This document shows positions 19,786-61,156 of a stretch of DNA of 64,000 nt, piece after piece. Position 1 is the stretch's first letter. Each line of letters starts with the position of its first letter. The DNA is taken from positions 66,617,261 to 66,681,260 of the forward strand of contig NC_134845.1 in NCBI RefSeq assembly GCF_965363235.1. Direction: 5' to 3'. This DNA comes from Mytilus galloprovincialis. Taxonomy: Eukaryota; Mollusca; Bivalvia; Mytilida; Mytilidae. Position numbers and translations under genes: made by a program. The notes under the pieces are model-generated. The model was not told where the DNA came from. It saw only the letters and a list, made by a program, of their open reading frames with translations, and did not search any database.

Positions 19786-21743
19786 AATAAAATTGAGAAT
19801 GGAAATGGGGCATGTGTCAAAGAGACAACAACCCGACCAAATAAAAAACAACAGCAGAGGGTCATCAACAGGTCTTCAATGTAGCGAGAAATTCCCGCAC
19901 CCGGAGGCGTCCTTCAGCTGGCCCCTAAACAAATATATACTAGTCCAGTGATAATGAACGCCATACTAATTTCCAAATTGTACACAAGAAACTAAAATTA
20001 AAATAATACAAGACTAACAAAGGCCAGAGGCTCCTGACTTGGGACAGGCGCAAAAATGCGGCAGGGTTAAACATGTTTGTGAGATCTCAACCCTCCCCCT
20101 ATACCTCTAACCAATGTAGTAAAGTAAACGCATAACAATGCGCACATTAAAATTCAGTTCAAGAGAAATCCGAGTCTGATGTCAGAAGATGTAACCAAAT
20201 AAAATAAACAAAATGACAATAATACATAAATAACAACAGACTACTAGCAGTTAACTGACATGCCAGCTCCAGACTTCAATTAAACTGACTGAATGATTAT
20301 GATTTCATTATATGAACATCAGGCACAATCCTTCCCGTTAGGGGTTTAGTATCATACCATCATAACATATATGAGAAGAACATAACCCGTGTCATGCCAA
20401 CAACTGTTTTTAGAATAAATGTGTTTAGTTCCGATGCAAAGACCTTATCAGTGACTCAATATTAACGCCAAAATATGCAATCTTTAATGACTTGACTACA
20501 GTATCGTAATTATATCCCTTCTTAATAAGTCTGTTCAAAGGTTTTGTAAGTTTCTGAGGTGAATACTGACACCTTTGTGCTTTATAAAGAATATTACCAT
20601 AAAAAATTGGATGTGAAATACCTGAACGTATTAGAAGTCTGCATGTTGAGCTATATTTACGAATGATGTCTTTATACCGATGATAAAATTTAGTAAATGT
20701 TTTGACTAGTTTGTGATATCGAAAACCCTGGTGTAATAATTTTTCAGTAATACATAAATTTCTCTCGTTAAAATCGAAAACATTTTTACATACACGAGCG
20801 AATCGTACAAGTTGAGATATTATAAACACCGTAAGATGGTGACAAGGGAACGTCACCATCTAAAAACGGATAATTAACGATAGGAAATGAAAAATCATCC
20901 CTTTCATCATAAATTTTAGTATTCAGCTTTCCATTAGTGATATAGATATCAAGATCGAGAAAAGGGCAGTGGTCATTGTTAGTATTAGCTTTATTTAAAG
21001 TAAGTTCAACAGGATAAATTTCATTAATATACATACTGAAGTCGTCATTATTGAGAGCCAAAATATCATCCAAATATCTAAAAGTATTATTAAATTTGTT
21101 TATCAGATGTTGTTTCGATGGGTCTTTGCTTATTTTTGTCATAAATTGTAACTCATAACAATACAAAAACAGGTCCGCAATAAGTGGTGCACAGTTAGTC
21201 CCCATTGGAATTCCGATAATCTGACGATATACGGAATCTCCAAAGCGAACAAAAATGTTATCTAGTAAAAATTCAAGGGCATATATAGTATCAAAGCATG
21301 TCCAATTAACATAGTTTTTTTGTTTATTGCTACTAAAAAATGACCTAAAAGAGTTTGAACATATATATTCACATTCTGATTTTTTGAATGCCCATTTAAT
21401 TAGGTGTGTGAATTTTTTCTTAATGAGAATGTGAGGCAATGTGGTATACAGGGTAGAAAAATCAAAACTTTGAACAGATTCAAAATCACCAATATAAGCA
21501 TGCAATTCATCAAGTACTTCCAACGAGTTCTTGACACTCCAAAAGTAATTTATTCCACTATTTTCGAAGGCCTTGTTTGAACAATTTATTATCAGGTTTT
21601 TAATTGTACCAAGTGTGCTGGTAAGAAGAATAGACAATTTAGTAGTTGAACAATGGCTTGAAGACGAAATAAATCTATATTTGTAAGGGGTTTTGTGTAG
21701 CTTCGGAAGCCAATACATAGTTGGGACTTTCATTGTATTTGAA
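19786..21743 (-). mobile_element. Penelope-like element family B, 5'-truncated RT copy inserted in R1
   Basis: A minus-strand frame (21733-20786) covers most of the RT. It has the early motif TMYWLPKLHKTPYKYRF, SFDFSTLYTTLPH (catalytic Asp of motif A), IGIPMGTNCAPLIADLFLY, and FRYLDDILAL with the catalytic pair. A second frame (20859-20425) continues with the thumb (SQLVRFARVCKNVFDFNERN) after a one-base insertion near 20820. A non-coding tail of about 640 nt ends at 19786. No GIY-YIG domain was seen. R1 sequence flanks both sides (ending near 19785, resuming near 21744), so this is an insertion. Five-prime truncation fits target-primed reverse transcription. Confidence 0.8.
20425..21733 (-). 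pseudogene. Penelope-like reverse transcriptase, frameshifted
   Basis: About 315 residues of RT fingers and palm (21733-20786) are followed in another frame by about 144 residues of thumb (20859-20425). The frames overlap around the lesion near 20815-20825, where the run reads TATAATATC on the coding strand. The catalytic motifs are intact, so the loss of function comes from the frameshift and the missing N-terminus. The 21733 start is only the first ATG after the truncation point. Confidence 0.75.
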
Positions 21744-33643: not shown

Positions 33644-35320
33644 TCAATTAAATCTGATCTTAAATGCAATCAAGAAAAATTTCATATATTTCCCCTCTCC
33701 GGGAACAACAGGACTAATGCTCATTATTTGATGCTTTTCTTTTATGAAATGTTTAAAATTTCCAAATATATCATGCAACATCAACCAATAAGGTGAAGAA
33801 TACCACAATGGAACCACCAATGTACAATTTGCCTCATCACTGCATAGTTTACTTATAACCTTACAAACAACATTTGGTCGTGGTACTAACCAATTGTTTT
33901 CACCAAACCAGTTTTGTGAGAACGCATCAATTGCTTCTGTATTCTTACACCAACATTTAGAATTAAATCTCGAACATTTAGTGTTGTAATCTGTAGCAAA
34001 TCTGTCTATTGTATGTTTACCCCATAACTTATCTAACATTTGAAATACAGATTCTTTAATACCCCAGTCGTCGCAATCTGAATATCTACTCAGACCATCA
34101 GCAATTTTATTTTGTTCTCTTGGAATTCAATGTGGTTTAATTTTTATATTGTTCTCTGAACATAAATAATTTAGCTCACAAGCAATATTTTGCAGTTCCG
34201 GTTTTTTGCTACCATTTTTAACTATACTAGTTACATTCTTATTGTCTGTATTCAATTTTAAACAATGGTTTTCTAAACATCTTAACGAACTTTTCACTGT
34301 TCTGCTTACTGCTTCAAGTTCACGTCATGTTGAACTTTTACCACTTTCCAATACTGTTACTACAGTATTCAAACTGTTACCTGGTAATTCTAGACAACAG
34401 TCAGTCAAAATTTCTAACGAGTCACAGACCTACTCGGCACATATGCCATCAACTGCGGGCACAATATAGCCCCCAAAACCTACTTCTGAGGCATCAGTAA
34501 ACGCCCCCAAATCACATACATCTGACTCATGCAGATCATTACCTTGCTCATTTAACTGCGTTACTGAATTTAACCAGTATTTGAGCTCCTCGACAGCCGG
34601 GGCTGTCAGAGCGACAAGTGACTTCCAACTTGCCCTTAATAGTATACAGTTATACAATTCTCTAGTTCTAAGCCTAACTAAATTACCTAACACAGCTTGC
34701 ATTGATATAATCTGACCAACAATTCCGGCAACAAACTTTGCATTGTGCAACATTTTTCCTTTTCCGACACAGAAAAGTATTTTACTGATAACATCAACTA
34801 ATCTGTCAATACGTTCACTAGAAACTCTAAGTTTCCCGAACTCCATATCCCATACTAAACCTATCCAGGTCATATTTTGCTGTGGATACCAAACACATTT
34901 TTCTTCAGCTATTAAAAAACCAAATTCAGACAAACTAGATCTTATATACGAACTAGCTCTTTCAGCTGATTGAAAATCATTTGCACCTCCAAGCCCATCA
35001 TCAAGATACATTATTATCTTCAACCCCTGATTTCTCCAGTATTTTATCACTTCCTTAAGAACTTTGGTAAAAATATGACCTGCACTGGCCAGACCAAAAG
35101 GAAGAACATTAAATACAAAGTACTTTGTTATACCATTGAAATCCCAACTGAAACCTAAATAAGTTCTATGTTCCTCTAATATTTCCAAATGGTGATATGC
35201 ACTTTTAAGATCATATCTAAACAAAAAATTGCCCTTTTCAAACAATTCTCTTGCAACTGTACCATCTTCAAATTTAAACCTAAACTGGTGTATGCATTCG
35301 TTGATATGCCTACAGTCCAA
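33644..35320 (-). pseudogene. DIRS-like reverse transcriptase/RNase H, broken
   Basis: In the 35320-34430 frame, RYDLKSAYHHLEI (motif A, Asp at about residue 37), LPFGLASAGHIFTK (about 73-86) and YLDDGL (about 105-110) are classic DIRS-group RT motifs. An RNase H start (FTDASEVGFGGYI) follows near residue 273. The reading frame is then interrupted by stops near 34435, 34327 and 34128 but remains readable to 33644, where HTIDRFATDYNTKCSRFNSK and a VVPLWYSSPYW segment mark the C-terminal domain of DIRS polyproteins. All three stops are explained by single transitions in TGG or CGA codons. Confidence 0.8.
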
Positions 35321-36459
35321 ACTAAACAGGGCTTCTTTGATCGACTCAAAGCTACCGTTAAAGGATTAACCACAAAAGGTATATCGTTAACTTCTGAAAT
35401 GCAACCTTTTTCTGTCAATTTCAAAATCTCACCAATAACGAATTCCCCGTTATCCCTAGCAGATTTATTATTTCTCAATATAACATTATCTGGCAGTACT
35501 TTAAACGGAATACCGTATCCTTTTTCTATAACACTCAAAATATACATGCTTGTGTCTATATCTCTCCATTTGTGTATTGATTTTTTAAATTTACCTACAG
35601 GTGTGAGTAAACTTGAATTTACCGTTAACTGGCTAGACACCTGTTCAATACGTTCACGCTCGAGTAAACAAATACTATCATCATTCATGAAATACTTTAA
35701 AGACTTATCAGTTAGGTGATTCGTATTCACCTGAAAACTATTACCATGTACTAAATCTGAGCAAATGCTACTTAATTTATTAACATTAAATAAATTTGTA
35801 CTTAACTTTCGTTTTTTCTCTGGACATTCAAATTTCCAGTGACCAGGCTTGTAACAGTTGTAGCAAACTTCGGGTCTCCCACTTGCTTTCCCGTTTGCAT
35901 CACTAAAAGTAACAGTTGAAGTTGGCCTGCTATATGGCGTTGGTCTTTTCTTCTTGGCTTTCTCTGATTTTGTTTTTCTCTCCGCTCGTGTCTGCGCTCT
36001 AAGAATCTTACGGTCGTCCTCTGAATCATCTGCGAGGGGATTCGCTGTATATTCTTGTACCACTTTCCATCCCATCTCGGACGAATCGGCCATTTTCACT
36101 AATTTCTGTCTATAGCGTATTAGTTGTATACCTTCTGCTATTTTCTGCTTGGCTAAACTGGCACTTGGGTCCCTGGACTCCAAACTGGCATCGGCTTCCT
36201 TCAAAGTTACGCTTAGTTTGCGATTGAATTTGAACTGATCCTCACACGACTTTCTTTGAAACTTGTAATCATCATTCCCCGAAAGTTCGTTTTGTAATCT
36301 GTTCATTTGTAGCTCAGATCTCTCCTTCTGTTGATGATCGAATTCTTGTAGTTTTATAGAAAACATCCCTTCCATTTGCGACAATAAATCATTCTGCGTT
36401 TTTCGAATTTCCTCCCCGACAATCCGCTTAACACTATTCTCGATGTCCGGATCCATCAT
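35176..36459 (-). pseudogene. DIRS-like Gag region and start of RT, frameshifted
   Basis: The 427-codon frame begins MMDPDIENSVKRIVGEEIRK, with a coiled-coil-like N-terminus. It has a basic region and a CX2CX4HX4C zinc knuckle (CYNCYKPGHWKFEC) near residue 200. It then continues into the connector before RT (SARDNGEFVIGEILKLTEKG). At about 35325 the RT continues in another frame: one T appears lost from a T run, so the end of this frame (to 35176) is out of register. The start at 36459 is the first ATG of a long open stretch. Confidence 0.75.
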
Positions 36460-49150: not shown

Positions 49151-51178
49151 TGTAACGTTTGTGGGTCACTTTATTTGGTTCATTTATTTATTTCATTATT
49201 ACTATTTTTTAATTATTTTTCCAGAAAGATTGCTTTTTATTATTTTATTACTTTCCGATTTTTATTTCATTCATTAAATTTTAGTGACGTAACGAACCTC
49301 GCATTAGCATTAAAAATGTTTTCCCTTCTCAACCAATCAGAGAGCTCGATTGAATTCCCGGGGAAAATTTAGCTCGTGCAGATATTGTCTGCTAGAAATC
49401 ATTCTCAGCCCAGACTTCCAGGTGTATAGATGTAAGGTAAAAAGGGGAATTTTCAACCATGTGCGCGATATTTTTGGAAGTGGTCTCGGTAGGAATCACG
49501 CGCTATTTTTTTATACTATAATTAGTGTATTGAAGAAAAGGTGTTTTACAGTATTTTTAGGTAAGAAGTTCCCCCTCCTATGATTTTCATGTACATATTT
49601 TGAGTGACTAAAACTGGCTGGTTGTTGATCACGGTTTGCATTGGAGATTTAGCGGAAAACTTTGAATATTTACGTGTTGAGGCGTGAATTATTTAGAAAG
49701 CTGTTCGCTGGTTAAATTATGAGTTGGGTTTTTGAAAAGTTCTTTGAACTGAATAAAAGTTGTCAGTTGGCGAATAACGAGATTCGGTTAACTGTTCAGC
49801 TGTTCAGTTGTTAAGGTTAAAGTTATTTATAACTTGCGGGTTAAAGCAAGTAGAAGTTCGGAGTCATTATTTGTTGGCATTCACGTGAGTGACTCAAATC
49901 TATGACTTGAACTTAAGGACGGTAAATTTAAGTATTAAAAGTGTTAACAAGCGAAATCCATATGCAAGCCCTGATCAGAACGGCAGAGTGAGTCGTTAAG
50001 AAAGTTAGATACTGAAAGAATTTATTTTCTTGGTCTAAGAAATCTTGTTATAGACTGCAGAAATAGACCATTGACTCGCAAAACTGTAACTTATTAAATG
50101 TGCAGCTGATTCATATGCGTGTTGTCTAATAAAAGTTGTATCTTACTGAATTATTTTATTACAGAGAAACGCCTTGTCCCTTGCCTGAATTGATCCTTCG
50201 ATTAAAACTCGTCCTGATTACTTCCCTTGGTATTGGTAACAACCTAGATTTTGAACCTCCCACGAGTCTGCGTTTCATGGTTTGCTGATTACAGATTATT
50301 TAAGTGAGAGCATATTCAGGACAGAACGAGTCTTATGTCGCCTTAGCTTCCCTTTGGATATTTATTTTCTGGTATTTGTCTGTGTATTTGGTATATAAAT
50401 CCTACTACAGGTTTGGAAATACTGAAATAGATTTGTTTTAAAAGTCTGTTATTTTTGTGGTGTCGTACTTGAAACGCCCACACTTTTTGGGTCGGGCTAT
50501 TTACATTTGGTCCGTCTGTCTGTCTGCCCCTTTATTTATTGTTGCCTTTAGGTTTATGGGAAATGTTTTAGTTTTACTCCAACCCATACAGATCTATAAT
50601 ATAGAATTAGTGTAGGACGGTACTTCATACTTGAGCAATAAAAATACCTAGACATATTTTTAGAGGTGCAGTATATTACTCGGCTACTACCCTAACTGTA
50701 GTGTTAGGACTGATTTCTCTGGTAAACTGATATTGCCAGATCCTATATTTGGTAACAGTCCAGATTGTCATTTCAGTTGTTCATCAAGTTCTACACAAGG
50801 ATATCACGACTGCGGTCAAGGTCAAAGGTTAGGATCTGGTTGGCCCTCTGAGTAGACTAGATCTTCTTTGTTTACCTTTGGTAATAGAATCCAGAAGTCA
50901 CACTTAACTGAGACTTGGAGAGTACAGAACATCAGAGACATCTTGTTCCAGAACACATATTTTAAATGAATTATAAACTGGTGGCATAGACCGGTAAAAA
51001 TTATACCTAATAAAACTCTTTAAAATATTCTAGTCGGGCATCACTATTATAGAAGTCCTAGAGCGAAAGCATAGGCCGAACCTACCCTCGAGATAGATTA
51101 AATGAAAAGTTGGGTTGCTGTCTAGTTTATAGAAAGTATAGGTTAAGGTCGCCTAGACAGTACCCCAGTTTCGTTTCA
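49151..51178 (+). repeat. 5' LTR, 2028 bp
   Basis: Starts TGTAACGTTTGTGGG and ends CCAGTTTCGTTTCA. It differs from the 3' LTR at 49375 (C/G), 49727 (G/A) and 50339 (C/T) as found by eye. The short open frames in it have no family resemblance and are not called genes. Confidence 0.95.
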
Positions 51179-51179
51179 C

Positions 51180-51197
51180 TGGCGCCCACGTAGGGAC
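51180..51197 (+). promoter_or_regulatory. Primer-binding site for minus-strand synthesis
   Basis: TGGCGCCCACGTAGGGAC lies one base after the 5' LTR and starts with TGG, complementary to a tRNA CCA end. The tRNA was not determined. Confidence 0.8.
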
Positions 51198-51314
51198 CCC
51201 TCTCATATATAATGTGTACTTGATAAATTTAATTTAAAAACTAAATAAGTTAAAACACTTTAAAAAAAAAAAATTATCAATTTAAAATTAAATAAAAGAA
51301 TTCAAGGGTTAGTT

Positions 51315-52802
51315 ATGGATACTCAAAAGATTAAAAAGGAGTTGCGAGAAATGAAACAAAAGATTGAAGAGAATGAATTGTATCTCGCTGAGGTTGAGCC
51401 TCGGGCTAAATTCCATGACTTGGATACAGGTCCACCTAGTTCTCCTGTACACAAGACGGACTATGCAGGTGCTATCCCTCGGAGAAGGCTTATTCCTGAG
51501 ATGGATGAGTTTAAGAGAGTTACCTTCTCGCCTAAACTTGATCGGGTTGAGAAATATAGCTCTACTCCGAAGCGGCTTCCATCACCACATAGTCCCATTA
51601 AAAAGGCCCCTATTCCTAGGTACGAGAGTACCTATCTGGGAGATCAGTATGATACACCAGAGGTAACAAGAGCTTGGGATGCTTTTGTGACAGTCCGGGA
51701 TAAAAATAAAGGGAGTTCCCAAACACGCTTATCGTCACCACCGAGACCACTTCCGCGCGCGTTTAAACCCGCGGATGACAAAGTCACACACTCGGGCAAA
51801 TTGCCGAATAAGCCGATTGTAACTCCTATTTGCTTTGATGGTAAACAGATGGAGATAAGAGATTGGTTAAGTCAATTTGAAAATTGTCGTGCCATTAATT
51901 TGTGGACTGATGATCAGTGTGTAAAAATACTGCCGACATTTTTGAGAGCTCAAGCTTTGCAGTTGTACAATGATATGACTTTGATTGAAAAGGGAGACTA
52001 TGGTTCACTTGTTAAATTTCTTATTCAAAAATTTGATCCTATTCAGGATCCCGGAGTTTATTTAAGTCAACTACATAGTATGACTCAGAGTTCATATAAG
52101 AGCTTATTGCAGCTTTCATCTGCTGTATTTAGGTTAGTATGCAAAGCATATCCCAGTATAGACTCGGACTCTAAACAAAAGATGTCGATTCAGTATTTTA
52201 TTGATGCTTTGTCAGACAGTGAGGTACAGAAACAAGTACGTCGTTTAAGTCCTAAGACATTGGCCGAGGCTGTTGACTTAGCTTTACGTGAAGAGTCATA
52301 TGTAACGTTGGAAAAGAAACGTCCAAAAACTCAATCACTTAGCGAAGTTGAACCCTCTGATCAATTTTCCGTGTTTAGTAAGCAATTGGAGGAATTGCGC
52401 GAGTGTGTGGCGAAGTTGTCCGTGGGAAAATTTTCCGCTGATCGCGTGGAGGAGGCCGCCGTCGCGCCAGCGCCAATTCAGATACCTGCGGGGAATGCCC
52501 CGAACTCTGGTAATAGGGGTGGATATGGTAACAGGTATAGAGGAAGAGGGAGAGGAAATTATGGTAGAGGTGCCCAAAGGGGGGGTTATAATTCTCCTGG
52601 CCAATATATGGGTCAAAACCAAAATGGAGGGTATTATAGTTATCCTGACCAAAATACTGGATTTACAGGTCAGTCCCAGGGAAATGCACCAACCTTTTAT
52701 GGAGGTAGAGATAATTTTTCTCAGAGGGGGTGTTGGAATTGTGGGGACTTGAACCATTTTAAGAGAGATTGTCCAAATGGGTCTTTAAACGGGTATTGGT
52801 AG
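51315..52802 (+). CDS. gag: Gag polyprotein
   Basis: 495 codons, from an ATG 135 nt after the PBS to TAG. The N-terminal third is charged and Pro-rich. Residues about 170-340 resemble the retrotransposon capsid region (FDGKQMEIRDWLSQFENCRA; FLIQKFDPIQDPGVYLSQLH). A Gly/Arg-rich stretch (about 395-425) and one CX2CX4HX4C zinc knuckle at residues 473-486 (CWNCGDLNHFKRDC) serve nucleic-acid binding. It should form the virus-like particle shell and package the RNA. The last codons overlap the start of pol in the -1 frame. Confidence 0.93.
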   Translation: MDTQKIKKELREMKQKIEENELYLAEVEPRAKFHDLDTGPPSSPVHKTDYAGAIPRRRLIPEMDEFKRVTFSPKLDRVEKYSSTPKRLPSPHSPIKKAPIPRYESTYLGDQYDTPEVTRAWDAFVTVRDKNKGSSQTRLSSPPRPLPRAFKPADDKVTHSGKLPNKPIVTPICFDGKQMEIRDWLSQFENCRAINLWTDDQCVKILPTFLRAQALQLYNDMTLIEKGDYGSLVKFLIQKFDPIQDPGVYLSQLHSMTQSSYKSLLQLSSAVFRLVCKAYPSIDSDSKQKMSIQYFIDALSDSEVQKQVRRLSPKTLAEAVDLALREESYVTLEKKRPKTQSLSEVEPSDQFSVFSKQLEELRECVAKLSVGKFSADRVEEAAVAPAPIQIPAGNAPNSGNRGGYGNRYRGRGRGNYGRGAQRGGYNSPGQYMGQNQNGGYYSYPDQNTGFTGQSQGNAPTFYGGRDNFSQRGCWNCGDLNHFKRDCPNGSLNGYW

Positions 52803-55800
52803 ATGGTGGGGCCACCCATCTGCCTGACGAACACACCCTGGCCATTAGTCAGCTTGCTGCTTTATATTTGAATACCATGATAGGACAAGAAAATGTTAGA
52901 TTTTTGGTTGATACTGGTTCTACTATCTCTTTATTAAATTTAGAAATGTATAGTAGCATTACAGAAGGAAAACTTGGTTTATATCCTTTGTCTAAAAATA
53001 ACTTGCAGTTTGAAACTGTAAGTGGAGAAATAATCACTTCACTTGGTACCATCTCTGTTGATATTAAAGTCGGTGTACATGTTTTTACTCAGCAAGTTGT
53101 TGTTGCTGATATTCCAGAGTCGGGGATATTGGGGGTTGATTTCCTAGATAAATTTGGGGCCCAGATGGATTTTAAGAAGAAAACTATATATATTGATGGC
53201 AATGCCTTCCACCTTTCTTCAGATACAAGAAAACTTTGTTGTAAAGTATCATTATCTAAAGAGACTTATATACCACCCAATTCAGAGATTATCACGACTG
53301 GTAAAATAAGGTTCAGAGGTGACTGGTTCCCTGAAGGTCAGATAGAACCACTTGGCTCTTTGCTAAGACAAAATTATTCTGTTCTTATGGCTCGCACATT
53401 GGTCAATACTGTTGGCAATTGTGTACCAATAAGACTGATGAATATTTCAGATGAACCTTGTACTGTTCCTAGGGGTATGGGAGTAGGACTAGTACATACA
53501 GTCCAGATCTGTCAACAATTGAATAGATCATCTGATACACCTCGTGATCCTTTATTACAATCTCTATTGGAGGAGGCATGTGTCGATCTAGATGATGAAC
53601 AAAAACAAAAAGTTGAAAATTTGTTAGACAAATATTCTGACATTTTTCTTGATAAGGGTGGCAAATTGGGCCGCACTGATATATTACAACACGTCATTGA
53701 TACTGGTGACTCTCCCCCTATAAAATTGAGACCTTACCGTCTTCCAATCCATAAAAGGGATGAAATTGATAGACAAGTCCAAGATATGTTGAAGCAAGGG
53801 GTAATCAGTCCTTCTAACAGCCCCTATAGCTTTCCCATACTACTTACCATGAAGCCAGATAACTCCTATCGGTTCGTTATTGATTATCGTCAACTGAACT
53901 CTGTGACAAAAGGCGATAGCTACCCGATTGCTCGAATAGACGATAGTCTAGATGCCTTGTCCGGTTCCCTGTACATGAGTACTGTTGATATGGCTAGCGG
54001 TTACTGGCAAGCCGAGGTACACCCCGATAGTAGAGAGAAAACTGCTTTTAGTACGGGCAAAGGTCTGTACGAATTTAATACCCTGCCATTTGGGCTGACA
54101 AATGCTCCTAGCTTCTTTCAACGCCTAATGGAAAAGATCCTAGCGGGTTTACAGTGGGACATTTGCCTAATCTACCTGGACGATGTCATTATTTTTTCAA
54201 AATCATTTGATAAACATGTTCAGGATTTAGATAGGGTATTTGATAAATTTCAAAAGGCTGGTCTCAAATTAAAACCTCAAAAGTGTCACTTGTTTCAGTC
54301 CGAGGTTAAATATTTGGGACATTATGTTTCTCGGGATGGGATAAAGTGTGACCCTAAAAAGGTAGCTAAAGTTCAGGATTGGCCTATTCCAAAAAGATTA
54401 AAGGAAGTCCGGTCATTTTTGGGGTTGGCATCATATTACAGGAGATTTATTAAAGATTTTTCAAAAATTGCTGCTCCTCTTTTTAATTTGACCAAAAAGA
54501 ATAGCAGATTTCTTTGGGATGAAACATGTCAGATTGCTTTTGATCAGTTAAAGCATTGTTTGATAGATTCAGCTGTTCTGAACTACCCAGATTTTTCTAA
54601 ACCCTTTATTTTAGACACTGATGCTAGTGACACTGCAGTGGGGGCAGTTTTGTCTCAGCTTTGTGAGGATGGGTTAGAGCGAGTGGTTGCATTTTATAGC
54701 ACAACTCATTCTCCCCAAGAGATTAATTATAGTACAACTCGTAAGGAACTACTTGCTGTGATCAAGTCCATTAAACATTTTAAGCATTATCTATATGGTC
54801 AAAAATTTATTGTTAGAACCGACCATGGGTCTCTTACCTGGTTGCGTAACTTTAAAGAACCTCATGGTCAGGTAGCTAGGTGGTTAGAATTTTTAGCAAA
54901 CTATGATATTCAATTTGAATATAGACCTGGGGTCCACCATCAGAATGCTGATGCCCTCTCTAGATATCCTAAAGTTTCTAGTATTCAAATACAAGGATTC
55001 ACTGCACAGGAAGTCCTTGAGGCCCAACGTGCAGATTCTGAACTAGAATTTGTTATAGCTATGCTTAAGTCTCATGTGGAGAAGCCTCCCTTTTCTCATG
55101 TCTCCGGACAAAGTAGCGTTATTAAAGCCTACTGGAATATGTGGGAACAGCTCGAATTGGTTGATGATGTTCTCTATAGAAAGTGGTTTAGATTAGAGAC
55201 AGATGAAATATCTCGTCTAGTGATGGCCCCTAAGAAGTTGAGACAGAAAATTCTGACTCTGGCACATGACGACGTTTCAGGTGGCCACTTGGGTATAACA
55301 AAAACTGTCCAGAAAGTACGTCAACGATTTTATTGGGTTAATTTGCAAAGTGATGTAACTGATTGGATAAAAAGTTGCCCAATTTGTTGTGCTAGGAAAA
55401 ACCCTCCAAGGAAAAATAGGGCAGAAATGGAGAATATCAGGGTAGGGGAACCTTTAGAAAGAGTAGCTATGGATATTACGGGTCCTTTTCCCATTACAAA
55501 GTCTAAAAATAGGTATGTGTTAGTACTTATGGACTATTTTACTAAGTGGGTGGAAGCTTATCCAATTCCAGATATGGGGAGTTGCACAGTTGCTCGATAT
55601 TTTTGTAAAGAATTTATTTCCCGCTTTGGTGTGCCCAGAATTTTTCTGAGTGATCAAGGACCTTGTTTTGAGGCGAGGCTTTTTCAACAATTATGTGACC
55701 TGTTTGGTATCCATAAGACTCGTACCAGTTCATATCATCCAATGACAGATGGTCTAGTGGAGAAAATGAACCATACATTAAAAAATGTTATTGCTTCATA

Positions 55801-56506
55801 TATTGATGAAGGTCAAACCGATTGGGATGAGTGGTTACCATTTGCCCTAATGGCAATACGCTCCAGTGTTCAAGAAACTACTGGAATGACCCCAAACAAA
55901 CTTATGTTTGGTAGGGAAATTAATATTCCCCTGACCCTTTTACATGAACCTTTACCCTCAAGTCCACCCTCCCATATAGAATATATAGGGAAATTACAGG
56001 ACAACATCAATAAAGCGTATGATATTGTCAGAGGCCATATGAAAACACAACAGAAAAGGCAGAAAGTCAATTATGACTTGAAGCAGTCTGGGAAACCCTA
56101 CAAGGAAAATGATCTGGTTTGGTTATTTACACCTCGTAAAAAGAAGGGACTGTCCCCAAAGTTGCAAAAATTTTGGGTAGGACCATATCGCATAGTCAAG
56201 AAATTGTCTGATGCAAATTATATGATCCAACTTGAAGGTTCTCTTGCTAAGCGAATAGTCCATTATAATAGGTTAAAGATCTATGTTACTCCTCACCCTG
56301 ATAGGACTTTGGTTAAAAAGCCTATTATTAGCCCTCCTCAAAGACCCCTTTCTTCAGACGAGGGTTCAGTAACTGAAGATATGAGTAATGATGAGAGTGG
56401 GAATGAAGAGGGTGTGTTCGATCAGCAACCCCAAACCCCACCATCTATACCCGGCAGACGTAGGCGACTTCCTCCTAGGCGATTTAGAGATTATGTCTTT
56501 TATTAA
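52769..56506 (+). CDS. pol: Pol polyprotein: protease, reverse transcriptase, RNase H, integrase
   Basis: 1245 codons if read from the first ATG, but translation most likely enters by -1 frameshift near 52790. Aspartic protease: FLVDTGSTISLL with the active Asp at 48. RT: VDMASGYWQ near 407 and YLDDVIIFS with catalytic Asp 471-472. RNase H: LDTDASDTAVGAVLS near 615. Integrase: zinc finger H833, H840, C870, C873, then D902, D962 and E998, i.e. D-x59-D-x35-E. A GPY-type module (WVGPYRIVKKL, about 1138) and a basic tail (PGRRRRLPPRRFRDY) end the protein; no chromodomain is seen. The order is that of Ty3/gypsy. All catalytic residues are present. Gene products copy the RNA and integrate the DNA. 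Confidence 0.96.
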   Translation: MSKWVFKRVLVDGGATHLPDEHTLAISQLAALYLNTMIGQENVRFLVDTGSTISLLNLEMYSSITEGKLGLYPLSKNNLQFETVSGEIITSLGTISVDIKVGVHVFTQQVVVADIPESGILGVDFLDKFGAQMDFKKKTIYIDGNAFHLSSDTRKLCCKVSLSKETYIPPNSEIITTGKIRFRGDWFPEGQIEPLGSLLRQNYSVLMARTLVNTVGNCVPIRLMNISDEPCTVPRGMGVGLVHTVQICQQLNRSSDTPRDPLLQSLLEEACVDLDDEQKQKVENLLDKYSDIFLDKGGKLGRTDILQHVIDTGDSPPIKLRPYRLPIHKRDEIDRQVQDMLKQGVISPSNSPYSFPILLTMKPDNSYRFVIDYRQLNSVTKGDSYPIARIDDSLDALSGSLYMSTVDMASGYWQAEVHPDSREKTAFSTGKGLYEFNTLPFGLTNAPSFFQRLMEKILAGLQWDICLIYLDDVIIFSKSFDKHVQDLDRVFDKFQKAGLKLKPQKCHLFQSEVKYLGHYVSRDGIKCDPKKVAKVQDWPIPKRLKEVRSFLGLASYYRRFIKDFSKIAAPLFNLTKKNSRFLWDETCQIAFDQLKHCLIDSAVLNYPDFSKPFILDTDASDTAVGAVLSQLCEDGLERVVAFYSTTHSPQEINYSTTRKELLAVIKSIKHFKHYLYGQKFIVRTDHGSLTWLRNFKEPHGQVARWLEFLANYDIQFEYRPGVHHQNADALSRYPKVSSIQIQGFTAQEVLEAQRADSELEFVIAMLKSHVEKPPFSHVSGQSSVIKAYWNMWEQLELVDDVLYRKWFRLETDEISRLVMAPKKLRQKILTLAHDDVSGGHLGITKTVQKVRQRFYWVNLQSDVTDWIKSCPICCARKNPPRKNRAEMENIRVGEPLERVAMDITGPFPITKSKNRYVLVLMDYFTKWVEAYPIPDMGSCTVARYFCKEFISRFGVPRIFLSDQGPCFEARLFQQLCDLFGIHKTRTSSYHPMTDGLVEKMNHTLKNVIASYIDEGQTDWDEWLPFALMAIRSSVQETTGMTPNKLMFGREINIPLTLLHEPLPSSPPSHIEYIGKLQDNINKAYDIVRGHMKTQQKRQKVNYDLKQSGKPYKENDLVWLFTPRKKKGLSPKLQKFWVGPYRIVKKLSDANYMIQLEGSLAKRIVHYNRLKIYVTPHPDRTLVKKPIISPPQRPLSSDEGSVTEDMSNDESGNEEGVFDQQPQTPPSIPGRRRRLPPRRFRDYVFY
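52784..52822 (+). promoter_or_regulatory. -1 ribosomal frameshift site and candidate stimulatory hairpin
   Basis: TTTAAAC at 52784-52790 sits in the correct register for tandem -1 slippage (T TTA AAC in the gag frame), four codons before the gag stop at 52800-52802. Ten nt downstream, AGATGGTG and CACCCATCT (52801-52821) can pair with a small loop and one bulge. Pol is open in the -1 frame across this site. Confidence 0.8.
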
Positions 56507-57608
56507 ACTAAATATATTGAGCTGGACTGAGAATCCTGTTTTGTAGTTGTCTTGTCAGCTGTTTTTATGTGTATATATTTGTTTTTATTTTCTTAGCCAC
56601 CGCTGCCACACCACTAAGTTTTGTAAACTCCACATAATTATAGATATTAACATAAGATAAGGTTTATGTCTGCTTGGAATGAAAGAAAAACTTAATTCCT
56701 CCTGTGATCTTGAATTGGAACATAGTAGAAGGAATTCTTTTGAGATGATGTATTAACTTGCTTCAACTGAAAATTGGTTGTTTGTATTGTTGTCGTATGG
56801 TCAAAAATTGCCTGATGTCCATGCCAACACCCAATTATTTTTTTTTTTTTTTTTTTTCTAAAGTTGAGAAATAAAATCCATTCCAAGCCAGACGAGTAAT
56901 ATAGGTATTAGTGTAATGATGATGTATTTTTTTTATTTTTGTTAATACGATAGTACTGAATGAAGGTTTCAACTGAAATTTGATGTTCTTTTTCTTGCTC
57001 AGATTCTATGACTGAATCCTATTAAAAGCTAATTTTTTAATTCACGACAGTTTAATTTGACAAATATTATAGTTCTTGTTAGTAATATAAATTCAAATAG
57101 TTGGAACTTTCATTTATTATATATATTTAGTTATGAATAATAAGGGATAAGGGTTCAACATCTGTTCGTGGTTTACAACGCTGGATAAATGGTGGATCGT
57201 GGTGTCTCCATAAACACGTCCGTGCGTCCTATCTAACACTTCCATCGTGTAATATCAAATCCATGAAAGATACAAGTTAATTTTTGTGCGAAATATACCA
57301 GTTAGTGCCTATAATTCAACCGATATTCATACAATATTGTTGCTATAAGCTATTTTAAAGGAAATTGTGTTTGAAAATGTCTGTGAATCTATGTGAAACC
57401 AGGATTAATATCACGGTAAAATTCTATGGTGGAAATTCACTCAATTGGTATGACTGATATTTATGTATCGCAAGAAAACTAACCAACAGTTAGGTGTTGG
57501 AGGAGGTAATTACCACAGATAGATTTTATGAGGTGTTACCCAGCCTACTCCATGCAGCATGTCCTATTTAGAATTGAACTGTATCCAAGTTTTTGAAAAT
57601 TAATTGCT
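56507..57608 (+). other. Retrotransposon 3' region, non-coding part
   Basis: AT-rich sequence between pol and the repeat ORF. It has a poly-T run near 56836-56858 and no supportable protein. Confidence 0.5.
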
Positions 57609-57857
57609 TTGTACAACAAAATACGTATTATCAATCGTTTTAGTCTCAAACTGAGGCGATTGTATAAAAGACATTTATACAAAGTATCTAAACTTACAAT
57701 ACCAAGACGTCTAGAAGTATCTAAACTTACCCTACCAAGACGTCTAGAAGTATCTAAACTTACCATACCAAGACGTCTAGAAGTATCTAAACTTACAATA
57801 CCAAGACGACTAGAAGTATCTGGAGAAATGGCTTCAGAACATTCGGAGTCTGGCTGA
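57609..57857 (+). CDS. Small ORF with four 11-residue basic repeats, function unknown
   Basis: The 82-codon frame contains four tandem 33-bp units (57682-57813) translating as VSKLTIPRRLE with at most one conservative change per unit (I to L), then an acidic end (SGEMASEHSESG). The differences between units are mostly silent or conservative. The opposite strand is open over the same units, so coding is not certain. It lies between pol and the hydrolase-like ORF inside the LTR element. It could be a spliced accessory exon or a recent minisatellite. Confidence 0.4.
   Translation: MYNKIRIINRFSLKLRRLYKRHLYKVSKLTIPRRLEVSKLTLPRRLEVSKLTIPRRLEVSKLTIPRRLEVSGEMASEHSESG
57682..57821 (+). repeat. 33-bp minisatellite, four units plus partial
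   Basis: AAGTATCTAAACTTAC / CCAAGACGTCTAG units start at 57682, 57715, 57748 and 57781, with a partial unit from 57814. The 33-bp length keeps the reading frame. Confidence 0.9.
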
Positions 57858-58189
57858 TAACTTTATTACGGACTAAAACCATGGTAATTATCATCAAAGG
57901 GAAATTTATCCGTAAACTCATCAAAGGGAAATATATTCATTGTTTTATCCGTAAACTTGTGTCATTGGTTTGAAAAAAATACCTACAAATCTTGGAAGTG
58001 CGTCAGATCTTTATCATTATTCAACGCTTACACTGATTTCGTGTTGGTGGAGATGAACTTTTTTCGCTAGGAATCAGGTGTTGAACAAGGACTTTCGTTT
58101 CTTTTATTTTAAGAAAAACATAATGTAATTATAAATAGATGTTATTTCGGTTAATCATGACTAATTCAATATTAATATCGCCTTACAAT

Positions 58190-58213
58190 TTATTTTTCAA
58201 GGTTAAATTTCAG
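58190..58213 (+). promoter_or_regulatory. Candidate 3' splice sites before the hydrolase-like ORF
   Basis: TTTATTTTTCAAG ends at 58201 and GTTAAATTTCAG at 58213, 59-71 nt before the ATG at 58272. A spliced subgenomic mRNA, as used for env in retroviruses, would explain how this ORF is expressed. This is inference. Confidence 0.4.
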
Positions 58214-58271
58214 AAACCAAAAGTAAAGATATATTAAAATTATATTGGGAAAATAGATTTAAAGATTAAAA

Positions 58272-58841
58272 ATGAATCCCACTGTACTTACTTTGGGACA
58301 TAGTTATATTCGAAGATTATCTAATTATTGTAAAATGAATAGGATGTCAACCAACTTTGGTATTACTTATATTAATGGTATTATGTATGGTAAAGGTGGT
58401 ACAAAATTGTGCAATATGATACAAGATCATGTCTTTCAAAGATTGATCACTAATTTTTCTCCTACAATAGTAATATTACAAATTGGAGGTAATGACATAG
58501 ATAACCATAATTTCATGGTTAATACTTTTATAGAGACTTTTAAAAAGTTTTTGAGACATTTGAAGTCTAAAAATGTAAAGAAGGTGGTTATAGTTCAATT
58601 GTTTCATAGGTTGAAAACTAGAGTTTCAAGGTCTGTATATGCAGGCAGAAGAGCCCAGATTAATCTGGAACTTGTAAATTTGACAAAAAGGGAGTTTAAA
58701 GGTTTTCTAGTGTACTGGACACCAAAGAGGTTGACATCAAAATTTCTATTGACAACAGATGGTGTCCATTTGAATAAAACCAAAATGAGGACTTATTATT
58801 ATTCCTTAAAGAGGGCTGTTAAGCTTTCTCTTAGAAAATAA
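58272..58841 (+). CDS. SGNH/GDSL hydrolase-like accessory protein of the retrotransposon
   Basis: 189 codons, ATG to TAA, within the LTR element between pol and the 3' LTR. All four SGNH blocks are visible: block I TLGHSYIRRL with nucleophile Ser11; block II MYGKGGTKL with the oxyanion Gly at 42-43; block III ILQIGGNDI with Asn74; block V TTDGVHLN with Asp163 and His166. The length is near the minimal fold (about 190-200 residues). No signal peptide or membrane span is seen, and the protein is basic (many Lys/Arg, for example KMRTYYYSLKRAVKLSLRK). SGNH-type domains are known from ORF1 of some CR1-like LINEs and from some Ngaro-type elements; in a Ty3/gypsy element it is unusual to my knowledge. 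Substrate unknown; esterase activity is a family inference. Confidence 0.85.
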   Translation: MNPTVLTLGHSYIRRLSNYCKMNRMSTNFGITYINGIMYGKGGTKLCNMIQDHVFQRLITNFSPTIVILQIGGNDIDNHNFMVNTFIETFKKFLRHLKSKNVKKVVIVQLFHRLKTRVSRSVYAGRRAQINLELVNLTKREFKGFLVYWTPKRLTSKFLLTTDGVHLNKTKMRTYYYSLKRAVKLSLRK

Positions 58842-59114
58842 AAATCAATAATGCCATTTGTTGTCACTTATTATAGATATATACATTTTAATGTGGAGTG
58901 GTTGGTGGTGGCTGAGATATATTTTTTCGTAATAATGTGGAGTAAATATATTTTTCAGCTTGTATAATTATTTGTATATTTCAGGAGGGGAGATGTTTTA
59001 ATCTTAATTGAAAATTTTGATTTCTTGCACCCGAGACCACCAGCTTTGCATAGCAGCCAGCGCGCGTTAACTAGCACATGGATTTTGCCAGATATGCGGA
59101 CATATCTGTTCTGT

Positions 59115-59125
59115 GGGAAAGGGGG
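59115..59125 (+). promoter_or_regulatory. Polypurine tract for plus-strand priming
   Basis: GGGAAAGGGGG ends three bases before the 3' LTR TG, the expected position. Confidence 0.85.
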
Positions 59126-59128
59126 TAA

Positions 59129-61156
59129 TGTAACGTTTGTGGGTCACTTTATTTGGTTCATTTATTTATTTCATTATTACTATTTTTTAATTATTTTTCC
59201 AGAAAGATTGCTTTTTATTATTTTATTACTTTCCGATTTTTATTTCATTCATTAAATTTTAGTGACGTAACGAACCTCGCATTAGCATTAAAAATGTTTT
59301 CCCTTCTCAACCAATCAGAGAGCTCGATTGAATTCCCGGGGAAAATTTAGCTGGTGCAGATATTGTCTGCTAGAAATCATTCTCAGCCCAGACTTCCAGG
59401 TGTATAGATGTAAGGTAAAAAGGGGAATTTTCAACCATGTGCGCGATATTTTTGGAAGTGGTCTCGGTAGGAATCACGCGCTATTTTTTTATACTATAAT
59501 TAGTGTATTGAAGAAAAGGTGTTTTACAGTATTTTTAGGTAAGAAGTTCCCCCTCCTATGATTTTCATGTACATATTTTGAGTGACTAAAACTGGCTGGT
59601 TGTTGATCACGGTTTGCATTGGAGATTTAGCGGAAAACTTTGAATATTTACGTGTTGAGGCGTGAATTATTTAGAAAGCTGTTCGCTGGTTAAATTATGA
59701 GTTGAGTTTTTGAAAAGTTCTTTGAACTGAATAAAAGTTGTCAGTTGGCGAATAACGAGATTCGGTTAACTGTTCAGCTGTTCAGTTGTTAAGGTTAAAG
59801 TTATTTATAACTTGCGGGTTAAAGCAAGTAGAAGTTCGGAGTCATTATTTGTTGGCATTCACGTGAGTGACTCAAATCTATGACTTGAACTTAAGGACGG
59901 TAAATTTAAGTATTAAAAGTGTTAACAAGCGAAATCCATATGCAAGCCCTGATCAGAACGGCAGAGTGAGTCGTTAAGAAAGTTAGATACTGAAAGAATT
60001 TATTTTCTTGGTCTAAGAAATCTTGTTATAGACTGCAGAAATAGACCATTGACTCGCAAAACTGTAACTTATTAAATGTGCAGCTGATTCATATGCGTGT
60101 TGTCTAATAAAAGTTGTATCTTACTGAATTATTTTATTACAGAGAAACGCCTTGTCCCTTGCCTGAATTGATCCTTCGATTAAAACTCGTCCTGATTACT
60201 TCCCTTGGTATTGGTAACAACCTAGATTTTGAACCTCCCACGAGTCTGCGTTTCATGGTTTGCTGATTACAGATTATTTAAGTGAGAGCATATTCAGGAC
60301 AGAACGAGTCTTATGTTGCCTTAGCTTCCCTTTGGATATTTATTTTCTGGTATTTGTCTGTGTATTTGGTATATAAATCCTACTACAGGTTTGGAAATAC
60401 TGAAATAGATTTGTTTTAAAAGTCTGTTATTTTTGTGGTGTCGTACTTGAAACGCCCACACTTTTTGGGTCGGGCTATTTACATTTGGTCCGTCTGTCTG
60501 TCTGCCCCTTTATTTATTGTTGCCTTTAGGTTTATGGGAAATGTTTTAGTTTTACTCCAACCCATACAGATCTATAATATAGAATTAGTGTAGGACGGTA
60601 CTTCATACTTGAGCAATAAAAATACCTAGACATATTTTTAGAGGTGCAGTATATTACTCGGCTACTACCCTAACTGTAGTGTTAGGACTGATTTCTCTGG
60701 TAAACTGATATTGCCAGATCCTATATTTGGTAACAGTCCAGATTGTCATTTCAGTTGTTCATCAAGTTCTACACAAGGATATCACGACTGCGGTCAAGGT
60801 CAAAGGTTAGGATCTGGTTGGCCCTCTGAGTAGACTAGATCTTCTTTGTTTACCTTTGGTAATAGAATCCAGAAGTCACACTTAACTGAGACTTGGAGAG
60901 TACAGAACATCAGAGACATCTTGTTCCAGAACACATATTTTAAATGAATTATAAACTGGTGGCATAGACCGGTAAAAATTATACCTAATAAAACTCTTTA
61001 AAATATTCTAGTCGGGCATCACTATTATAGAAGTCCTAGAGCGAAAGCATAGGCCGAACCTACCCTCGAGATAGATTAAATGAAAAGTTGGGTTGCTGTC
61101 TAGTTTATAGAAAGTATAGGTTAAGGTCGCCTAGACAGTACCCCAGTTTCGTTTCA
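59129..61156 (+). repeat. 3' LTR, 2028 bp
   Basis: A direct copy of 49151-51178 at an offset of 9978 bp throughout, with three substitutions found and no indel. It ends TTTCGTTTCA before unrelated flank. Confidence 0.95.

Follow-up and report, generated by a model that had tools for sequence, protein, structure and literature searches.

Downstream of gag and pol, a retrotransposon in the genome of the bivalve Mytilus galloprovincialis carries a third open reading frame (ORF3) for a small SGNH/GDSL hydrolase. The questions raised are whether this ORF belongs to the element and what it may do there. The window analysed here is a stretch of 64,000 nucleotides of contig NC_134845.1; features are collected in Table 1. 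A preliminary description had claimed a complete 189-codon ORF inside the LTRs of a Ty3/gypsy element, and this is indeed what was found, with LTRs of 2,028 bp enclosing open gag and pol frames. LTRs, a site resembling a primer binding site and a polypurine-like tract were all present, and the order of pol domains identified by Pfam is that expected for a Ty3/gypsy LTR retrotransposon, to which class we thus assign the element. The primer binding site is presumably tRNA-Lys-like. Gag matched zf-CCHC (1.2e-5) and Ty3_capsid (6.3e-5, below the cut-off for this family), and the 34-bp overlap of gag and pol joins different frames. The integrase contains H2C2 and a C-terminal p58_C/SH3-type module; no dUTPase was found in pol among Pfam matches at E up to 1. 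An imperfect duplication (ATTTA/ATTAT) flanks the element. Differences in the spacer between pol and ORF3 are even across the three frame positions (first 1.1 kb examined), and the CAG of the candidate splice acceptor is retained in 11 of 12 aligned copies. Pieces of the 33-bp spacer array also match in other copies of the family.

Table 1. Features of the Ty3/gypsy element, in coordinates of the window.
Feature	Position	Strand	Remarks
Ty3/gypsy element, whole	49151-61156		
5' LTR, 2,028 bp, TG...CA	49151..51178	+	3 differences from the 3' LTR
Likely primer binding site, TGGCGCCC...	51180..51197	+	directly after the 5' LTR
gag ORF, 495 aa	51315..52802	+	Ty3 capsid-like region and one CCHC zinc knuckle
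pol ORF, 1,245 aa	52769..56506	+	protease, RT, RNase H, integrase
Spacer without coding signal, 1.77 kb	56507..58271	+	between pol and ORF3
33-bp tandem repeat array within the spacer	57682..57846	+	
Candidate splice acceptor (TCAG)	58210..58213	+	58 bp upstream of the ORF3 ATG
ORF3, 189-aa SGNH/GDSL hydrolase	58272..58841	+	Ser11, Gly43, Asn74, Asp163, His166; pI 10.7
3' UTR	58842..59128	+	present in 12 copies
Polypurine-like tract GGGAAAGGGGGTAA	59115-59128	+	end of the 3' UTR
3' LTR	59129..61156	+	

The ORF3 product scored above the Pfam GDSL cut-offs and contains all four SGNH blocks with their Ser, Gly, Asn and Asp/His residues, in agreement with the earlier assignment. Structure prediction and fold search, proposed as a check, returned the SGNH alpha/beta/alpha fold (AlphaFold model, pLDDT 96), with sialate O-acetylesterases among the fold neighbours. 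Relatives were retrieved from M. galloprovincialis, M. edulis, M. coruscus, other bivalves and one annelid. Most are 20-48% identical, and conservation across them is among the strongest at the catalytic Ser, Gly, Asn, Asp and His. A M. galloprovincialis protein (P0004) matches at 96% over 39% of the query; in its gene model, a different domain is fused to the match. When solved structures were searched, the single ORF3 sequence gave chance matches only and no SGNH chain, a 4-sequence profile reached SGNH chains only at E 0.14-0.29, and a 66-sequence profile matched the ZfL2-1 esterase (PDB 4c1b) at E 1.2e-9. The protein is very basic (34 K+R versus 7 D+E), its pI equalling the maximum among 66 relatives (median 9.3). 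Viral contigs scanned with query A1 gave no match, and with query A2 a single partial stretch (residues 39-78) on a 673-kb contig (L001); genome contigs scanned with P0001 gave none. None of the best 120 of 7,900 pol relatives, which were at most 61% identical to the window pol, combines pol with an SGNH domain in one protein.

Searching the 1.385-Gb assembly for the SGNH sequence retrieved at least 104 matches (150 of 161 candidates scored; some copies split). Twelve of them, the window's own included, are close copies (79-100% over the matched stretches), and the order spacer-SGNH-3' UTR-LTR is common to all; in three of the other 11, the spacer match is limited to its last 67-145 bp. A DNA search with the junction of 3' UTR and LTR gave at least 42 matches (40 of 47 candidates scored). 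Twelve cover all but at most 2 bases of the query, with 88-100% identity, and these adjoin the 12 SGNH copies, so that ORF3 lies directly upstream of every full family junction among the matches listed. One further junction match (C8:46045595, 72%) adjoins a 54% SGNH relative (L021). Near three partial cross-junction matches (C7:71795292, 94%, query 77-354; C5:100476748, 68%; C5:64242901, 72%), no SGNH sequence was found among the SGNH matches listed, and most remaining matches are LTR only.

The pol C-terminal piece matched at least 111 places (111 of 2,421 candidates scored). All six places at 80-100% identity have a same-strand SGNH copy downstream, at a distance of ca. 2.5-3.0 kb in five and 13.7 kb in one. 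None of the other 105 pol places listed, at 47% identity or less, has an SGNH match on the same strand up to 20 kb away or on either strand up to 12 kb away. It follows that the ORF entered one lineage and stayed there. We conclude that ORF3 belongs to the element; its constant presence, which the preliminary description had asked to be checked, holds for all full family junctions and family pol places listed.

ORF3 is open in three copies (the window, L010 and L012) and broken in nine; in L010 and L012 it is open though pol is frame-broken. Absence or decay in other copies had been named as the finding that would speak against the ORF; decay was found, as would be expected of dead insertions, and absence was not, the ORF being present at all 12 full junctions. 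Since L013, L017 and L020 have common flanks, as do L018 and L019, the 12 copies amount to nine insertions, a count that provisionally takes L014 as an insertion of its own. In L013, L017 and L020, gag-pol is replaced by a self-similar stretch of 0.7-1.2 kb that does not resemble the window element. The idea that these three represent a multiplying pol-less family was rejected, since their common flanks point to one insertion duplicated within a larger repeat.

Selection was analysed pairwise and over the nine insertions together. Pairwise dN/dS of the SGNH frame was 0.29-1.05 (14 of 66 possible pairs). The 95% interval was below 1 in three pairs (window-L013, 0.14-0.62; window-L017, 0.19-0.96; L012-L011, 0.23-0.85) and included 1 in 11; the value of 1.05 for window-L010 reflects four nonsynonymous differences and one synonymous. 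The corresponding values were 0.13-0.27 for pol (four pairs) and 0.31 and 0.43 for gag (two pairs). Shared differences in ORF3 fell on the three codon positions as 14/11/19, a weak test for strong conservation. In a codon likelihood model with transition bias, dN/dS of ORF3 over the nine insertions was ca. 0.6 (values of 0.5-0.8 on the grid fell within the 95% range) and a value of 1 was rejected (twice the lnL difference 5.43, p 0.02). Under the same model, pol gave ca. 0.3 (p 2e-16). The spacer served as a control; translated in an arbitrary frame, it gave ca. 1.0, with 1 not rejected (p 0.59). The simpler MG model without transition bias gave ca. 0.52 for ORF3 (p 0.002); we report the model with kappa, a parameter that here counts transversions and lies below 1, for its better fit. 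The test is conservative in one respect, since dead copies push dN/dS towards 1. Thus, the expected dN/dS below 1 was observed, if modestly, and selection on ORF3 is weaker than on pol.

These values bear on the possibility that ORF3 is a passenger, captured and spreading with the element without benefit to it. Constraint that is weak relative to pol, pairwise intervals that mostly include 1 and a p of only 0.02 in the better-fitting model are all compatible with this, and the variation of rotifer GDSL ORFs inside one genome was considered largely neutral (PMC5408684). However, a dN/dS of 1 was rejected in spite of the dead copies, the residues have been retained over deep divergence, and every full family junction listed has ORF3. 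We therefore consider a mere passenger quite unlikely.

We put at slightly better than even the chance that ORF3, the third ORF of the element, is an intracellular SGNH esterase helping particles or ribonucleoproteins (RNPs) to use membranes or lipids. Drawing on the residues, linkage and dN/dS observed and on the predicted fold, this model posits translation, catalysis and a lipid substrate. Since ORF3 lies 1.77 kb downstream of pol, it would probably be translated from a spliced subgenomic RNA. The product may be catalytic in the cytoplasm as a lipid/acyl esterase, which is the most likely model because an SGNH domain of another transposon, that of the LINE protein ZfL2-1, hydrolyses an acetyl ester and binds acidic phospholipids and liposomes (PMC3905857). 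By analogy with that esterase, strong positive charge may draw ORF3 to acidic phospholipids. There it would bind an acyl ester or cleave it, at the stage of assembly, trafficking or exit, and could so join the particles or RNPs of the element to membranes. For the lipid role we extrapolate from a distant LINE protein, reached only by the 66-sequence profile, and the high pI would also suit nucleic-acid binding.

The SGNH fold might accordingly be retained for binding and not for catalysis, ORF3 serving as an RNA-binding protein or a particle scaffold like Oskar, which is termed a non-catalytic SGNH protein in PMC3905857. Besides the pI of 10.7, a match of one of the 66 relatives to the Pfam OSK domain (E 2.4e-5) points this way. 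Binding alone, however, needs none of the Ser, Gly, Asn, Asp and His that are so highly conserved across divergent relatives, and no binding to oligo-A RNA was seen for the ZfL2-1 esterase (PMC3905857), which makes a purely binding role unlikely.

The "env position" assigned to the ORF earlier holds as to position, and nothing env-like was found. No signal peptide, hydrophobic leader or membrane-spanning stretch was seen by eye in the sequence of ORF3, for which reason an envelope protein is not likely. An esterase in the place of env could instead act in exit or entry, altering a host surface glycan or membrane for passage from cell to cell. Apart from the position, the sialate O-acetylesterases among the fold neighbours would suit such a role, and membrane penetration has been proposed for rotifer GDSL ORFs (PMC5408684, PMC6431247). 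The lack of a visible signal peptide or transmembrane stretch argues against it, as does the occurrence of related ORFs in other element classes; the rotifer authors themselves find an env function unlikely for their GDSL ORFs, which have no coiled coil or transmembrane segment (PMC5408684). We hold this reading to be distinctly unlikely, and keep to the cytoplasmic esterase.

The preliminary description knew of no described Ty3/gypsy family with an SGNH ORF. An LTR case exists: Vesta1-type LTR retrotransposons of bdelloid rotifers carry a GDSL ORF3 (Rodriguez 2017, PMC5408684). Vesta resembles the window element in its LTRs, in gag-pol followed by an ORF3 with SGNH residues and in an ORF3 without coiled coil or transmembrane segment, a likeness of architecture and residues. 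It differs in having a dUTPase in pol (between protease and RT), LTRs of 159-551 bp and GDSL clones of 1.3 kb (PMC5408684), whereas the window element has no dUTPase match, 2,028-bp LTRs, a 570-bp ORF and a mollusc host; the mostly neutral variation reported for Vesta ORF3 within a genome also stands against the dN/dS of ca. 0.6 in the window family.

SGNH esterases are further carried by CR1/L2/RTEX LINEs and Penelope-like elements, mollusc ones included (PMC5408684, PMC3905857). The ZfL2-1/CR1-type esterase belongs to the SGNH family and has a basic lipid-facing surface, as ORF3 is a basic protein; it is joined to a coiled coil in ORF1 upstream of EN-RT in a non-LTR element (PMC3905857), whereas the window element has LTRs and a separate SGNH ORF 3' of pol, and so is not of the CR1 type. 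Ngaro-like tyrosine recombinase (YR) retrotransposons also carry an accessory SGNH ORF, which follows YR at their 3' end (PMC9210276), and differ by the recombinase and split direct repeats from the window element with its LTRs and rve integrase core. Esterases of Neptune-like Penelope-like elements of fish and molluscs (PMC5408684) and GDSL ORFs of rotifer Terminons (PMC6431247) are likewise SGNH-type ORFs in retroelements, although not LTR elements; the comparison with them is one of published descriptions. Fish Helitrons captured texim SGNH genes (PMC4021074), which are also carried by a transposon, in that case a rolling-circle DNA transposon with an intron-containing gene. The open-licence literature searched yielded no LTR element of a mollusc that carries an SGNH ORF, and a published case elsewhere is possible; the available text of PMC10294476, PMC6238403 and PMC8556966 contained no mention of esterase, SGNH or hydrolase. 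New here are the short, very basic SGNH form in a mollusc LTR element without dUTPase match and its unusual genome-wide setting. Why retroelements repeatedly gain lipid-type esterases is an old open question, behind which we found one structural study (PMC3905857). The family described here offers a compact stand-alone esterase, a family-wide linkage set against a clear absence elsewhere (0 of the 105 other pol places listed) and a modest signal of selection that the rotifer case (PMC5408684) did not show.

The same genome contains SGNH ORFs, 26-35% identical to ORF3, in mobile elements of other kinds. Two loci (L030 and L031), 99.9% identical over 3.7 kb, represent a young Ngaro-like element with split direct repeats and the order gag-like ORF, RT (RVT_1), YR (Phage_integrase) and SGNH. 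The RT and YR matches are above their cut-offs, and that of the SGNH ORF, 26% identical to the window ORF3, is below (PF13472, 24.6 bits). They are two of at least 28 places with the same 210-aa SGNH frame and match range, 20 of which have one identical score among the matches listed. In L033 (4995-5603) and L034, SGNH is the first ORF, followed by a gag-like ORF and by RT and YR, whose Pfam matches lie below cut-off; YR is located in L034. SGNH also lies 5' of an RT-bearing element in L026 and 5' of a gag-like ORF (by eye) in L032, loci that were read only up to gag or RT.

In L023 and L024, which are 97-99.7% alike in long pieces, and in the diverged L025, the SGNH ORF lies ca. 2.3-2.8 kb 3' of a long ORF, with a DUF6589 match in two of the three. 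We take DUF6589 proteins to be transposases; among the papers listed by a literature search, none contained the term. Around L025 (L035+L025+L036, G000:C8:80039800-80058799), a pair of perfect 19-bp inverted repeats (BLAST E 0.005), separated by 15.4 kb and each bordered externally by ATA, encloses a 1,780-aa ORF related to the DUF6589-bearing ORFs together with the SGNH ORF. This region is a candidate DNA transposon carrying an SGNH ORF.

In an SGNH tree of 53 rows chosen from proteins and loci, the gypsy ORFs group with P0003 and P0006 (100/100) and the order of the deeper forks is not settled. The SGNH ORF of L023 is identical to the M. edulis protein P0013 over the tree columns. Because the deep forks stay open, independent capture by the LTR element, as suggested earlier, is neither shown nor refuted. 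Exchange of SGNH ORFs between element classes is suggested by their distribution and not by tree topology. A tentative reading, which we rate as possible though short of probable, is that mobile elements of unrelated kinds within one animal genome have passed around a single clade of small SGNH esterases as a portable module. The elements concerned would be a Ty3/gypsy element (as ORF3), YR retroelements (as last ORF in one family and first ORF in others) and a DUF6589-type DNA transposon. The shared service would then not be RNP assembly, since DNA transposons form neither RNPs nor particles, and might concern, for example, membranes during cell-to-cell transfer or host control by acyl modification. 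ORF3 as a counter-defence or host-modifying enzyme that, for instance, deacylates a host silencing factor would explain why related ORFs occur both in retroelements, of two orders, and in a candidate DNA transposon; we find this reading very improbable. The presence of relatives in several kinds of elements within one genome makes it possible to test RNP, particle and host-interface services against each other.

In a Mytilus study, an SGNH hydrolase-like protein was listed among highly divergent (Ka/Ks) genes (PMC9063065). Given the genome-wide SGNH matches, the gene in question may belong to a transposon instead of the host. Elsewhere in the window, a 315-aa ORF on the reverse strand (20786-21733) resembles a Penelope-like reverse transcriptase by eye, with no Pfam match, and DIRS-like gag and RT ORFs were recognized by eye on the same strand at 34430-36459, the RT with an RVT_1 match at E 4.1e-16.
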